Assembly (NCBI GenBank): GCA_019694955.1
Contig: JAIBAX010000006.1
Coordinates: 1-64,000 of the forward strand
Source of the DNA: Chitinophagales bacterium
Lineage (GTDB): Bacteria; Bacteroidota; Bacteroidia; Chitinophagales; JADIYW01
Length of the DNA stretch: 64,000 bases
Direction: 5' to 3'
Positions 11,775-55,754 of the stretch are shown here, piece by piece; the stretch's first letter is position 1; every line of letters begins with the position of its first letter. The position numbers and the translations under genes were made by a program. The notes under the pieces were generated by a model. That model worked only from the letters and a program-made list of their open reading frames with translations, made no database searches and was not told the DNA's origin.

Positions 11775-12353
11775 CTAATTCATACTAGGCTTTAACTGCG
11801 GTATAACCGTTGATTTAACCTCCGTTGGTTTGGTTTGTCGCATTTCCATTTTTCGTTGCTTGCGCTCAATATCCTTCTTTTCTCTTTCCGTTCCCTTGTA
11901 TGGAACGCGCGTACCCATCACATAGTCCCACAATGGAAACGTCACACACCAATTTTTATCCTGATCTTGCCCCATATGATGGTCATAATGCCAAGGAAGG
12001 TATTTATATCCCCATTCCGGATTGAGGTGAGATTTCTTGTGTACACGAAAATAATTCCATTGAGAAAACCAGATGCCGGCAACAAAACCCGGAAATATGG
12101 GCAAAAGTGGCGTAAAAACCGCCGCACCGCCTACCAAGGTGGCAACTTCCTTGCTTTGTGGATTCCAAGATGTCCACCATGGCTTTTCATAATCGCTGTC
12201 TCTATATTCTTCCTGCATCACAGTCTTATGATGGATAGCCCAATGAAACCGCCAAAAACTGTCTTTTTTCTTACCTAGTCCATGCAACCAATACTTATGG
12301 ATGTACCATTCTCCGGCATTTGCCACTAAAAGTCCACTTAAAAAACCAAACAT
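11775..12353 (-). CDS. Fatty acid hydroxylase / sterol desaturase-like protein
   Basis: A 192-residue protein with histidine clusters of the di-iron membrane hydroxylase superfamily: HKYWLH (HX4H, about 19-24), HWAIHH (HX3HH, about 38-43), a later single His near the middle, and HYDHH (about 123-127). Two short hydrophobic segments (1-16 and about 70-95) fit a membrane-bound enzyme. Members hydroxylate or desaturate fatty acids, sterols or carotenoids with O2; the substrate cannot be read from sequence. It is divergent from the GNAT gene. A second, different member lies at 51801-52463. The C-terminal 40 residues are basic and probably flexible. Confidence 0.7.
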   Translation of the reverse strand: MFGFLSGLLVANAGEWYIHKYWLHGLGKKKDSFWRFHWAIHHKTVMQEEYRDSDYEKPWWTSWNPQSKEVATLVGGAAVFTPLLPIFPGFVAGIWFSQWNYFRVHKKSHLNPEWGYKYLPWHYDHHMGQDQDKNWCVTFPLWDYVMGTRVPYKGTEREKKDIERKQRKMEMRQTKPTEVKSTVIPQLKPSMN

Positions 12354-15362: not shown

Positions 15363-15740
15363 GATTACAGGTAGTCTTTTGTATCACAAATTCGTCCACC
15401 GTTAACGGTCGTCCCGATGATTCGGGAGACCACCGTTGCTAAGAAGAACGTTAAAAAATGATTTTTTTGTATCACAAAGTTCCACAATGAAGGCACTAAG
15501 TTCGCAAAGGAAGCCACCTTTACGACAAAAGGCAAGATTTTATCTTGCAATCCGCAACAATCTTTCAAAAGGATTGTATGCTACACAAAGTTTCAAAACC
15601 ATACACTATATTCAGTTATATGGTATACACTTAGTATCGTGAAGAAGAAATACATGTTATGAACAAACCACATTAAAAAATAAACCTTTAAAAATCCTAC
15701 AACTAAACCTCCATAATTCATATCTTTCAAAAAATATTCA
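15363..15740. other. Intergenic region packed with hairpins and direct repeats
   Basis: No gene seen. A 14-base direct repeat TTTTGTATCACAAA occurs at 15377-15390 and 15465-15478. Between the copies lies a strong hairpin (GGTC-TCCCGA / TCGGGA-GACC, 15407-15431, one bulged G). Further hairpins are CAAGAT/ATCTTG (15533-15547) and ACAATC/GATTGT (15557-15577). Bases 15473-15510 match the CTTTGTG repeat family seen near 25820 and 40155. Confidence 0.5.
15407..15431. repeat. Hairpin between 14-base direct repeats
   Basis: Stem TCCCGA (15412-15417) / TCGGGA (15422-15427) with loop TGAT, extended by GGTC/GACC across a bulged G. There is no T run after it on either strand, so it is not an ordinary terminator. 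Confidence 0.5.
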
Positions 15741-38389: not shown

Positions 38390-40048
<1,659 letters not shown>

Positions 40049-40119
40049 TTATATATTTCTCTAAAGCTACATATTTAATTGTCATTAATTTATTAATTGC
40101 AAGATGTGGGGATGGTTCA

Positions 40120-41155
40120 CTGTCATCGGTTCATAGTTCACCGTGTGAGGTCTCCTTGGTGTACTTTGTGAAAAATCTTGGCGTACTTTGTGGTTAAGGA
40201 ATATCACAAAGTCCTCTAAGCATACACAAAGTTTCCCAAAGTTGTCGCAGTACGCAATACGAATATCACTGTACTAATTTGGAAATGTGAGGATTTGAAA
40301 ATTGAAGATGTAGCTCTTGCTACAAGTGACAATAAAACTTAACCAATGTCGCAGTACGCAATACGAAGATCTCTGTACTAAAAAGTTCACAGTGGTCAGT
40401 TCACAGTTCACAGACATTTGTGGTTAAGGAATATCACAAAGTCCTCTAAGCATACACAAGTTTCCCAAAGTTGTCGCAGTACACAATACGAATATCGCTG
40501 TACTAAAAAGTTCACATTGGTCAGTTCACAGTTCACAGACATTTGGGAATGTGAGGATTTGAAAATTTGAAGATGTAGCTCTTGCTACTAATGACTAAAA
40601 AACTTAACCAATGTCGCACTACGCAATACGAATATCGCTGTACTAAAAAAGTTCACAGTTCACAGACATTTGTGGTTAAGGAATATCACAAAGTTGTCGC
40701 AATACGCAATACGAATATCGCTGTACTAAAAAAGTTCACAGTGGTCAGTTCATAGTTCACAGACATTTGGGAATGTGGAGACGTGGGAATCTTGGTGTAC
40801 TTTGTGAAAAATCTTGGCGTACTTTGTGGTTAAGGAATATCACAAAGTCCTCTATGCATACACAAGTTTCCCAAAGTTGTCGCAGTACACAATACGAATA
40901 TCGCTGTACTAACTAGGTTCACAGTGGTCAGTTCACAGACATTTGGGAATGTGAGGATTTGAAAATTTGAAGATGTAGGCTCCCGCTACTAATGACTAAA
41001 AAACTTAACCAATGGTCGCAGTACGCAATACGAATATCGCTGTACTAATTTGGAAATGGGAGGATTTGAAAATTTGAAGATGTAGCTCTTGCTACTAATG
41101 ACTAAAAAACTTAACCAATGGTCGCAGTACGCAATACGAATATCGCTGTACGAAA
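40120..41155. repeat. Modular repeat array of about 1 kb, eight copies of a hairpin unit
   Basis: This noncoding stretch is built from a few modules in varying order. Unit A (about 33 bases, core CAGTACGCAATACGAATATC then GCTGTAC) occurs eight times, near 40243, 40348, 40472, 40612, 40695, 40878, 41014 and 41120. Between copies lie unit C (GTGAGGATTTGAAAATTTG, then GTAGCTCTTGCTAC), unit D (AAAGTTCACAGTGGTCAGT with TTCACAG runs), and unit E (GTGGTTAAGGAATATCACA then AAGTCCTCTA). On the minus strand A folds as AGTAC-(A)-GCGATA, loop TTCG, TATTGC-GTACT. No frame longer than chance is present. Confidence 0.85.
40155..40242 (+). repeat. CTTTGTG-family module, first copy in the array
   Basis: Two near-repeats, CTTGGTGTACTTTGTGAAAA and CTTGGCGTACTTTGTGG, are followed by inverted CACAAAG and CCCAAAG blocks. 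A second almost identical copy is at 40791-40877. Related shorter copies occur at 15473-15510 and 25820-25857, so this is a genome-wide family rather than something local. Confidence 0.6.
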
Positions 41156-41204: not shown

Positions 41205-43235
41205 ATGCATTTAAACATTAGAAAATTTGGAATTGGCATTTTATGCCTACTGGGAATCATGAGTTCCTGTAAACAAAAAGGCACTGGAAAGACCGTTGGA
41301 TTTGATGTTTCCACGATGGACACTACCGTTTCTCCGTGTGATGATTTTGATCAGTTTGCCAATGGTGGCTGGAAGAAAAACACCAAAATCCCTTCCACGG
41401 AAGCTTCTTGGGGTGCTTTTGAAATCTTGAATAAAGAAAATGAAAGCAAGCAAAAAGGCATTATACAAGAAGTGCTGAATGGAAGCCATAAAAAAGGCTC
41501 TAATGGACAACTTATCAGTGATTTCTATAAATCTTATATGGACACAGTAACCATTGAAAAATTGGGTACATCCTCCATACAACCTTATTTTGACAAAATT
41601 GACAAAGCGACGAACTTCGATGACCTGCTCTATATCAATGGAACTCTACCCAATATGGATAACTTCTTTAATTATTATGTTGAAGCCGATTTAAAAGATA
41701 CTAAAGTTAACCAATTCTATATTGTACAAAGTGGTCTGGTAATGGGAGATAGGGAGTACTATCTTTCAAATGCGTCTGATATGGTGAGTATTCGTACAAA
41801 ATATATGAACTTCTTAAAAAACATGCATGTCTTAATTGGTCAAACGCCAGAGCAGTCCACCGTTTCTGCCAACACCATTTTTGCCTTGGAAAAGAAAATT
41901 GCAGAAATACATCTTGCCAAAGAAGAAATGCGTGACCCTGTAAAAACATACAATAAAAAATCATATGCAGAACTAAAAGCATTGGCAACCAATATCAATT
42001 TCGACAAATTCTTTGAAGGCTTAGGCAAAAAACCAACAGAAGTGTCTATTGATAATGTTGAGATTATTACAAAAACAAATGCTCTTATAAAAACTGTTCC
42101 GTTGGCAGATTGGAAAGCATATCTCAAATGGCAACTGTTAACCAACATGGCGCCCTACTTAAATAAGTCGTTGGAAAAAGAGCGTTTTGCTTTCTTCGGT
42201 ACAGTCATGAATGGCATTGCCGAACAAAAACCAAGAGATGAAAGAGGCTTGAGAAATGTAAATAGATCACTCGGTGAACCATTCGGAAAATTATTTGTAG
42301 AAAAATATTTCTCTGAAACTTCGAAAAAGAAAATTGGAGAAATGATAGAAAACCTTCGTTCAGTTTACAAGGAACGCGTTCAACAACTCGACTGGATGAC
42401 CGATTCTACAAAAATGGCCGCCGTAAAGAAATTGGATGCCTTCACCTATAAAATCGGCTATCCCAATAAATGGAAAGACTATTCCAAATTAGAAATTTCG
42501 GCAGATAAATTATTCGATAACGTAATAGCTATCAATCGCTATGAAACCAAGCTCATGTTAGACAAACTAGGGAAACCGGTGGATAAAGACGACTGGTTGA
42601 TGACACCACAATTGGTAAATGCTTATTACAATCCAACCAATAACGAGGTAGTATTTCCCGCTGGTATTCTTCAACCGCCATTTTATAATCCGGATGCTGA
42701 TGACGCCATCAACTACGGTGGTATTATGGCTGTCATTGGACATGAATTTACCCACGGTTTTGATGATCAAGGCAGTCAATTTGCTCCTGACGGAACGTTA
42801 AATGATTGGTGGACGGCTGAAGATAAGGCTAAATTTGCCGAAAAAACCAATAAACTTGTAGCGCACTATAATAAATTTGAGGTACTCCCCGGTTTATTCT
42901 GTAATGGTGAATTTACGCAAGGCGAGAACATTGCCGACCAAGGCGGTGTAATTTTGGCGTATTATGCATTGCTAAAATCATTAGAAGGAAAACCCGAACC
43001 AAAACCTATTGATGGCTATACCTATAAACAACGTTTCTTCTTGGGATGGGCGCAAGTATGGAGAGATTTATCAACAGATGAATCTTTAAAAAGCTTAGTG
43101 GCAACCAACCCACACGCACCAGCAAAAGCAAGGATAAATGCCACCCTTTCTAACCTCAAAGAATTTCATGACGCCTGGGGATGTACCTCCGGAAAAATGT
43201 GTACCCCAGAAGCAGAGAGAGCATTGGTCTGGTAA
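41205..43235 (+). CDS. M13-family (neprilysin/PepO-like) metallopeptidase lipoprotein
   Basis: A 676-residue zinc endopeptidase. The N terminus is a lipoprotein signal with IMSSC (Cys22). The zinc site is VIGHEFTHGFDDQG (HEXXH near residue 513), with the third ligand in GENIADQGG near 573 and the substrate-binding VNAYYNPTNNEV upstream. The C terminus MCTPEAERALVW is the M13 ending (CXXW-like). It would be anchored outside the cytoplasm and cut small peptides. It lies directly after the repeat array, so its promoter must sit in the last ~50 bases or inside the array. A strong terminator follows. Confidence 0.93.
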   Translation: MHLNIRKFGIGILCLLGIMSSCKQKGTGKTVGFDVSTMDTTVSPCDDFDQFANGGWKKNTKIPSTEASWGAFEILNKENESKQKGIIQEVLNGSHKKGSNGQLISDFYKSYMDTVTIEKLGTSSIQPYFDKIDKATNFDDLLYINGTLPNMDNFFNYYVEADLKDTKVNQFYIVQSGLVMGDREYYLSNASDMVSIRTKYMNFLKNMHVLIGQTPEQSTVSANTIFALEKKIAEIHLAKEEMRDPVKTYNKKSYAELKALATNINFDKFFEGLGKKPTEVSIDNVEIITKTNALIKTVPLADWKAYLKWQLLTNMAPYLNKSLEKERFAFFGTVMNGIAEQKPRDERGLRNVNRSLGEPFGKLFVEKYFSETSKKKIGEMIENLRSVYKERVQQLDWMTDSTKMAAVKKLDAFTYKIGYPNKWKDYSKLEISADKLFDNVIAINRYETKLMLDKLGKPVDKDDWLMTPQLVNAYYNPTNNEVVFPAGILQPPFYNPDADDAINYGGIMAVIGHEFTHGFDDQGSQFAPDGTLNDWWTAEDKAKFAEKTNKLVAHYNKFEVLPGLFCNGEFTQGENIADQGGVILAYYALLKSLEGKPEPKPIDGYTYKQRFFLGWAQVWRDLSTDESLKSLVATNPHAPAKARINATLSNLKEFHDAWGCTSGKMCTPEAERALVW

Positions 43236-50447: not shown

Positions 50448-50969
50448 ATGAATTTGATATACATAATCATTGCCATCGCTTTTTATGTCTTTAAGATGTA
50501 TTCGGATGCTAAGAAAAAAGAAGAAGAGCAAAGAAAAAAGCGTCAGGTCAATACAGTGCCTACCATGCAACCTTATAAGAGCAAACCTGTTTTACCCAGT
50601 CAACCATTGCCACCGGTAGCGGTTGAAGACCCTTTTGAAAAGATGATTCGCGAGCTGAAAGAAACATATGTTGAAGAAAAACTACCCAGTGAGGAGGTCA
50701 AAGAAAACGAATTTGAAGCCCCGGTTTATGAGAATTTGGATGAGCGATTTCAGCAGCTTAAATTAGACAACATACCCACCGAGGAAGGAGGTTCGATTTT
50801 CAATGATAAAGATTGGATAGACGAACCCATGCATAAGAAAGTACTTGTTTCATCCCTAGTTGAACCTGATTACAGCAAGAAGCCAATATTTTTAAATGGC
50901 AAAGAAATCTCCCCCAAAGACCTCATCATCGCCAAGATAATCTTGGATAAGCCGTTGGGGTTATCGTAA
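50448..50969 (+). CDS. Hypothetical protein with N-terminal membrane anchor
   Basis: A 173-residue protein with one membrane helix at residues 2-18 (LIYIIIAIAFYVFKMY). A strongly charged segment follows (DAKKKEEEQRKKRQ) that would stay in the cytoplasm, then a proline-rich linker and an acidic C-terminal part. No family recognised. It ends the plus-strand gene run and may be co-transcribed with the photolyase gene 32 bases upstream. Confidence 0.6.
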   Translation: MNLIYIIIAIAFYVFKMYSDAKKKEEEQRKKRQVNTVPTMQPYKSKPVLPSQPLPPVAVEDPFEKMIRELKETYVEEKLPSEEVKENEFEAPVYENLDERFQQLKLDNIPTEEGGSIFNDKDWIDEPMHKKVLVSSLVEPDYSKKPIFLNGKEISPKDLIIAKIILDKPLGLS

Positions 50970-51109
50970 TGCTGTATCTTTTACTATTTTGAATAGATGT
51001 GATTATCATTTGCGTACAGCGACATCTTAAAATTTCCAAATCTACTGTGGGCTGTGTGACTTTCTGCCACGAATGCACGAATTAAGTTATAAGTACAGTA
51101 GAACAAGTC

Positions 51110-51173
51110 ATTCCCAAATTCTCACATTTCCACATTCTCACATTCTCACATTTCCAAATCTCCAAATTCTGAG
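51110..51173 (+). repeat. Tandem array of eight 8-base units
   Basis: Eight consecutive octamers of the pattern ATTCTCAC / ATTTCCAC / ATCTCCAA run from 51110 to 51173. The same motif, reversed, forms unit C of the array at 40120-41155 (GGAAATGTGAGGATTTGAAA), so the two loci share one repeat family. Just before it, GTACAGCGA (51014-51022) and GCCACGAATGCACGAATT (about 51067-51084) are other short repeat-like pieces. Confidence 0.65.
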
Positions 51174-51175
51174 GT

Positions 51176-51778
51176 TTATTGACAGGAGTCCTCATATAAA
51201 CTCATATACTCCCAAATAATATCTACCGCTTCTTGTTTCATATCTCTTTTCAATTCGGCATTCTGTTCAACTTGATTACATGCTTCGAATGCAGCACACC
51301 AATCTAAATCCAATTCACGTTGTGCTATAACTAATCCACGAATCATTTGAAATGTATAACTATTCGGCTGCTTCTTAACAGCCAAATCTAAAATTTTTAT
51401 GGCTGCTTCCGTAGAAAAATAATCGTCCATTTCTTTTAGATAACCAAAACATAGTAACTCATCAGCACTACATTTTGAAAGACTGAACCTTCTTTTACCA
51501 TATTTCTTTTTTAGGAAGTTTTCATAGAAGTCGGCATTTTTCTTACCATTGATATCCCAACCCAATGCATTAATCAACGCAACTTTTTGTTCAATGGGAT
51601 AATCTCCTGATAGAAATTCAGCAAAATTATTCGTCATAATACCGCCTTTTTCTGCTTCCCTTATGATGTCGATATCAAAGTATGCTTGACAAAAATAGGT
51701 AGAAGTAATAGGCGAATCACAAAAGCATGTTAAACTACTGCTGACTGCAAAAAATAACCACAAAATATATTTTTTCAT
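51176..51778 (-). CDS. Hypothetical exported protein, 200 residues
   Basis: No family recognised. Residues 1-21 form a signal peptide ending near FCDSP (a possible lipobox SLTCFC is less convincing). The mature part is helical and acidic with scattered cysteines: FEACNQVEQNAELKRDMKQE near the end resembles a helical-repeat or TPR-like structure. The stop codon lies against the octamer repeat array. It is 22 bases from the hydroxylase-like gene on the same strand and may be co-transcribed. Confidence 0.6.
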   Translation of the reverse strand: MKKYILWLFFAVSSSLTCFCDSPITSTYFCQAYFDIDIIREAEKGGIMTNNFAEFLSGDYPIEQKVALINALGWDINGKKNADFYENFLKKKYGKRRFSLSKCSADELLCFGYLKEMDDYFSTEAAIKILDLAVKKQPNSYTFQMIRGLVIAQRELDLDWCAAFEACNQVEQNAELKRDMKQEAVDIIWEYMSLYEDSCQ

Positions 51779-55620: not shown

Positions 55621-55626
55621 TGGACT

Positions 55627-55670
55627 AACCTCGAGGGTTGATCAAAACAACCCTCGAGGTTATATTTTCT
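55627..55670 (+). terminator. Strong hairpin terminator after the archaemetzincin gene
   Basis: AACCTCGAGGGTTG (55627-55640) pairs perfectly with CAACCCTCGAGGTT (55648-55661) around a 7-base loop, then TATATTTTCT. The T run is short of perfect but the stem is very stable. Confidence 0.7.
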
Positions 55671-55733
55671 ACAAAGTATATTGTAAATCAAATGTTTATT
55701 GAATTTTACATTCATTATTTTACTATAAAATAC

Positions 55734-55754
55734 ATCAACCTCCGAGGTTGATTT
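55734..55754. repeat. Second CAACCTC-type palindrome
   Basis: ATCAACCTC and GAGGTTGAT are exact inverted copies around one C, followed by TT. The sequence shares AACCTC/GAGGTT with the terminator 80 bases earlier, so both may belong to one palindromic repeat family. Confidence 0.45.

Follow-up and report, generated by a model that had tools for sequence, protein, structure and literature searches.

The locus raises the question of what the intergenic mosaic of short repeats (~1 kb) that separates two divergent genes, pyrG and an M13-family peptidase gene, represents and how it arose. The window (the whole stretch of 64 000 nt that was analysed) was compared with the remainder of its genome and with relatives. 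The stretch is one of ~36 dispersed noncoding mosaic arrays, which probably grow by tandem duplication and by homology-anchored copying between arrays.

Organization of the array

No ORF of at least 80 aa was found between pyrG and the M13 peptidase gene (gene calls were simple ORF picks), in agreement with the noncoding 1-kb array of the original prediction. All eight copies of the ~33 nt unit A described there were recovered on the minus strand with three mismatches or fewer (100 shuffles gave none), and the A-to-A spacing of 83 to 183 nt was the same when re-measured. The modules found at the locus were A, B, C, E, H and 'gtgaac', and the features are located as follows.

38390-40006, minus strand: pyrG (CTP synthase), flanking gene, start MAKFIF; identity from the protein sequence and the earlier note
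40115-41155, minus strand: entire mosaic array, strand assigned from unit A
41121-41151, minus strand: unit A, copy 1 in A-strand order (0 mismatches to the consensus)
41015-41045, minus strand: unit A
40879-40909, minus strand: unit A, C-to-T copy within a duplicated 90-nt block
40696-40726, minus strand: unit A
40613-40643, minus strand: unit A
40473-40503, minus strand: unit A, C-to-T copy within a duplicated 90-nt block
40348-40378, minus strand: unit A, 2 mismatches
40244-40274, minus strand: unit A
40276-40348, minus strand: H and C module, CAAATTTTC words and GTAGC/GCTAC hairpin (family D2)
40541-40613, 40941-41013 and 41048-41120: additional copies of the H and C module (family D2)
40187-40212: core of the E module, cacaaag words, imperfect palindrome (family D7 and fold)
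40417-40442, 40669-40694 and 40823-40848: identical copies of the E core (family D7)
40152-40192, second copy at 40788-40828: remaining half of the E palindrome, with cttggcgtactttgtg present twice (family D9)
40385-40411, minus strand: B word, GTGAACTGTGAACTGACCACTGTGAAC read on the A strand (family D5)
40115-40141, 40510-40536, 40734-40760 and 40917-40943: additional copies of the B word (family D5)
40941-41151, minus strand: 106-nt cassette duplicated in tandem, 95% matches
41205-43235, plus strand: M13-family peptidase gene, flanking, ATG at 41205

Read along the A strand, A is followed by C or E, usually then by H and B, and then by the next A; the hairpin claimed for unit C is present. 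The 90-nt blocks at 40417-40506 and 40823-40912 are 99% identical and contain copies 3 and 6 of unit A. The change to a G-T pair reported in these two copies is real; as both lie within the duplicated block, it is most simply one mutation that was subsequently duplicated, rather than two separate changes that preserve pairing. The last A ends ~50 nt before the peptidase ATG, as had been described. The promoter region of pyrG, which the array was also thought to fill, is not filled by it, since the repeats end at ~40115, ~110 nt short of the pyrG ATG (40006..40004).

Distribution of unit A in the genome and the phylum

Confinement of unit A to this locus had been named as one observation that would count against the original prediction; it is in fact dispersed genome-wide, occurring ~69 times in the 4.1-Mb Bacteroidota genome at ~36 noncoding loci, among other short words with a period of 7-8. 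The 69 copies were counted within 467 kb read around the 67 genome-wide matches to the A query, a few of which match the gttcac part only. Nearly all A loci lie outside predicted genes, and most of the few ORF calls that are overlapped are short and doubtful. The arrays consist of degenerate words with a 7-8-nt period (A, B, C, E, F, H and others) in a common strand polarity, with autocorrelation peaks at lags 7, 8, 14, 16 and 24. The loci were selected for containing A, which inflates the copy numbers given for other words.

Among 395 genomes of the phylum the A core was detected only in the source genome, 22 times per strand, and was absent from the other 394. A 74-nt query yielded nothing A-like in 40 relatives, which include no genome of the same genus; four weak matches in G009 cover the gttcac part only.

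Further repeats were observed. An array of the same words without A (six H and two F matches on one strand) lies at 50969-51176 of the window, with convergent genes around it. At 15473-15517 a cacaaag-type word, CACAAAGTTCCACAAGGAAGC, forms a short tandem repeat of 2.1 copies, and at 55625-55750 there is a palindrome cluster, AACCTCCGAGGTT / CAACCCTCGAGGTT, which is abundant in many other fetched loci and constitutes a separate dispersed repeat family. Elsewhere, CCTAAAGGGGGAAACCTCACTGAAAC is present nine times at L024:9150-10110 (G000:C74), with a spacing of mostly 70-80 nt.

Growth of the arrays and exchange between loci

At the level of sequence comparison, both local tandem duplication and exchange between loci are established for the arrays. 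A copies from one locus resemble each other more closely (0.897) than copies from different loci do (0.816), a difference matched by none of 1000 permutations, and the window and C57 loci have 521 nt in common at 89% identity. Together with the tandem duplication, the likeness within loci and the blocks common to different loci support the repeat-expansion reading that the original prediction had offered as one possibility. New words may be copied in from other arrays by gene conversion or template switching anchored in homology or microhomology. A shared word would set the register during such copying, and orientation would thereby be kept. Unit A is probably a recurring junction unit, often situated close to the 5' edge of an array. 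The simplest reading is that the array is repeat DNA, neutral or selfish, which the genome tolerates in its intergenic space.

Two A loci at G000:C57:48050 and 53620, with 5.6 kb between them, have identical sequence around A, which suggests a local duplication.

Strand polarity of the arrays

Every multi-copy A cluster is unidirectional and head-to-tail, and the same polarity extends to the words around it. Counts on the A strand and the opposite strand were 113:6 for GTGAAC, 111:6 for CCAAAT, 53:0 for CACATCT, 47:0 for CAAATTC, 36:1 for CACGAAT and 26:0 for TTTTTAGT; the E word, which is palindromic, was the only even one (16:14). Inter-locus matches that include A necessarily fall on the same strand, and A was therefore masked, leaving 776 same-strand and no opposite-strand matches (234 locus pairs, 33 loci); the unmasked figures were 1763 and 0. 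Eight array-like intergenic stretches lacking A gave four concordant and no discordant pairs of word types, one of these stretches being nearly a duplicate of an A locus. G003 belongs to a different genus within the family; seven arrays in it, built of largely different words, gave 96 same-strand matches and none opposite, or 68:0 with the H word masked.

A single polarity for many word types at more than 30 loci, together with a relative that follows the same rule with other words, represents a strong constraint on array formation. The rule excludes that each word inserted freely, in whichever orientation. The A strand bears no relation to GC skew or to gene strand bias, so that a strand tied to the direction of replication, as judged by GC skew, is unsupported. 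Passive copying does not strictly require opposite-strand matches to be absent altogether, which counts against the copying explanation; the rigid polarity is the interesting feature of the arrays.

Folding of unit A and gene context

The consensus A folded as RNA at -10.6 kcal/mol (z -2.1; -1.3 for a common variant, which folded less well), with little or no excess stability on the opposite strand or with DNA parameters. The fold has the bulged A, UUCG loop and G-U pairs that had been predicted, and its stem has 12 pairs, near the 11 bp claimed. Covariation was not found. Among 61 distinct A copies, standard pairs occupied 84.6% of cells against 84.2% with partners shuffled, a value reached by 101 of 500 shuffles, and two-sided changes in the stem numbered 2 against 2.0 in shuffles. 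Columns 3, 6, 27 and 28 of the lower stem vary freely and the lower stem is often broken. An Rfam scan of the window gave no match. The proposal of a structured RNA thus fails its main test, and a hairpin lacking compensating mutations makes the array look like a self-copying patchwork. The hairpin is probably a by-product of the near-repeat sequence TATTCG-TATTGCG-TACTGCG, not kept as a structure.

The flanking genes were co-directional at 16, convergent at 11 and divergent at 9 of the 36 A loci, compared with 78, 34 and 37 of all 130-1500-nt intergenic stretches of the same DNA. The gene context of A loci is without promoter bias, and the suggestion of a protein-binding array at promoters draws no support from it, 11 of the 36 loci lying between convergent genes, near background. 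In a scan of the window, matches to the Bacteroidota promoter pattern (-33/-7) were at chance level, with none inside the array; sigma-70 and terminator scans were at or below chance. By a sign test (p 0.004), the first A lies closer to the 5' gene edge than the last A to the 3' edge (medians 78 and 238 nt). This hint of a defined insertion polarity also counts against the copying explanation.

A second M13-family peptidase gene (G000:C25:12098-14227) has an A unit and a word array just upstream (A at 12098-12130, gene at 12254). The closest homologues of the M13 peptidase in public named genomes are ~50% identical and mostly from Chitinophaga; the assignment to Bacteroidota was inferred from these homologues.

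Alternative explanations

Several other origins were weighed against growth by duplication and copying between arrays. A small mobile repeat of the cyanobacterial kind, in which A itself moves and words gather around it, is rather unlikely. Its clear 5' and 3' limits, its confinement to one genome and the two singletons lying apart from recognised words (L021:7581 and L035:14115) are what such an element would leave, but, unlike free insertion, A is hardly ever found reversed relative to the remaining non-palindromic words. Furthermore, pyrG adjoins the M13 gene at none of 80 public loci and in none of the relatives examined (flanks read for ~1.5 kb), and consequently no pair of filled and empty sites was found. 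Somewhat more doubtful is a directional copying process that starts from unit A, generates arrays of genome-specific words, all of one polarity, in the spaces between genes, and also operates, with a different vocabulary, in another genus of the family; if true, it would account for all 776 of the 776 inter-locus matches being same-strand. A REP-like element, with a RAYT (REP-associated tyrosine transposase) moving the A hairpin in the form of single-stranded DNA, appears improbable. Unit A is noncoding, dispersed, foldable and of high copy number, and the genome has three REP-type transposase genes (one RAYT that passes the NCBIfam cut-off and a weaker pair of Y1 genes), yet none is flanked by A in the stretches read, where other array words are isolated short matches only, and the best RAYT is surrounded by a different palindrome, tcttcgacatgttcagcg... 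REPINs and BIMEs are inverted, whereas no inverted A pair was present in any multi-copy cluster. A GTAG/GTGG tetranucleotide was not found at the foot of the A stem, most copies having TTAGT or TTCGT there. The decay of the stem without compensation, the slight self-complementarity of the H and B words and the indifference of the A strand to GC skew also argue against a REP-like origin.

That the array acts as a regulatory element or structured RNA on pyrG and the peptidase gene is very unlikely. It does lie between divergent genes, the other M13-family gene likewise has an upstream A, and A, C and E are foldable (A-strand z about -2 to -3); against this stand the lack of covariation and of an Rfam match, gene orientations compared with background, and the absence of A from relatives. 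An artefact of assembly, conceivable in a repetitive draft of 103 contigs, can be given hardly any weight, as the arrays vary between loci, sit inside contigs and carry individual substitutions. Growth by tandem duplication and copying between arrays is the preferred reading.

Transposase and reverse transcriptase genes were also noted in the genome. The RAYT gene at L009:900-2700 (G000:C103; NCBIfam NF047646, 104.7 bits) lies amid repeated palindromes, cttcgacatgttcagcgtaagcgcatgtcgaag and ttcaaagttgcaaactttgaa, probably the REP family that belongs to it. Genes for two retron-like reverse transcriptases are located at G000:C6:27903 and C86:37082 (best PADLOC models RT_XIII and RT-Protease_XI); a link with the arrays was rejected, no A, H, B or F words being found beside either.

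Comparison with known repeat systems

Short intergenic repeat words are widespread in bacteria and poorly explained. Elhai and colleagues reportedly described, in 2008, cyanobacterial small dispersed repeats as a very small dispersed unit among short tandem repeats. Unit A is likewise very small, dispersed and set among short repeats; the cyanobacterial elements insert into empty sites, whereas for unit A neither a filled and empty site pair nor a syntenic relative was found.

The arrays resemble REP, REPIN and BIME elements with RAYT (PMC3116915, PMC2817692, PMC6006769) in being short, extragenic, hairpin-capable and clustered. Unlike these, unit A is arranged head-to-tail, its palindrome is not maintained and it does not flank RAYT genes.

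For Bacteroidota, the literature search on such arrays found only the heptamer repeats of PMC4679880. Short tandem heptamer repeats (GGGNATC, TAACTGA) are known from cyanobacteria, Xanthomonas and Beggiatoaceae, and have been reported in a few Bacteroidetes; they are intergenic, dispersed and variable in copy number (PMC4692102, PMC4679880). The present arrays are similarly intergenic, dispersed (36 loci, with few exceptions outside predicted genes) and variable in copy number, with a period of ~7 (autocorrelation lag 7, also 8, 14 and 16). The BOGUAY TAACTGA repeats lie mostly just upstream of start codons, whereas the present arrays have no promoter-side bias. The heptamer repeats are near-perfect copies of one heptamer, whereas the arrays described here combine mixed degenerate words in one polarity with a 33-nt unit A.
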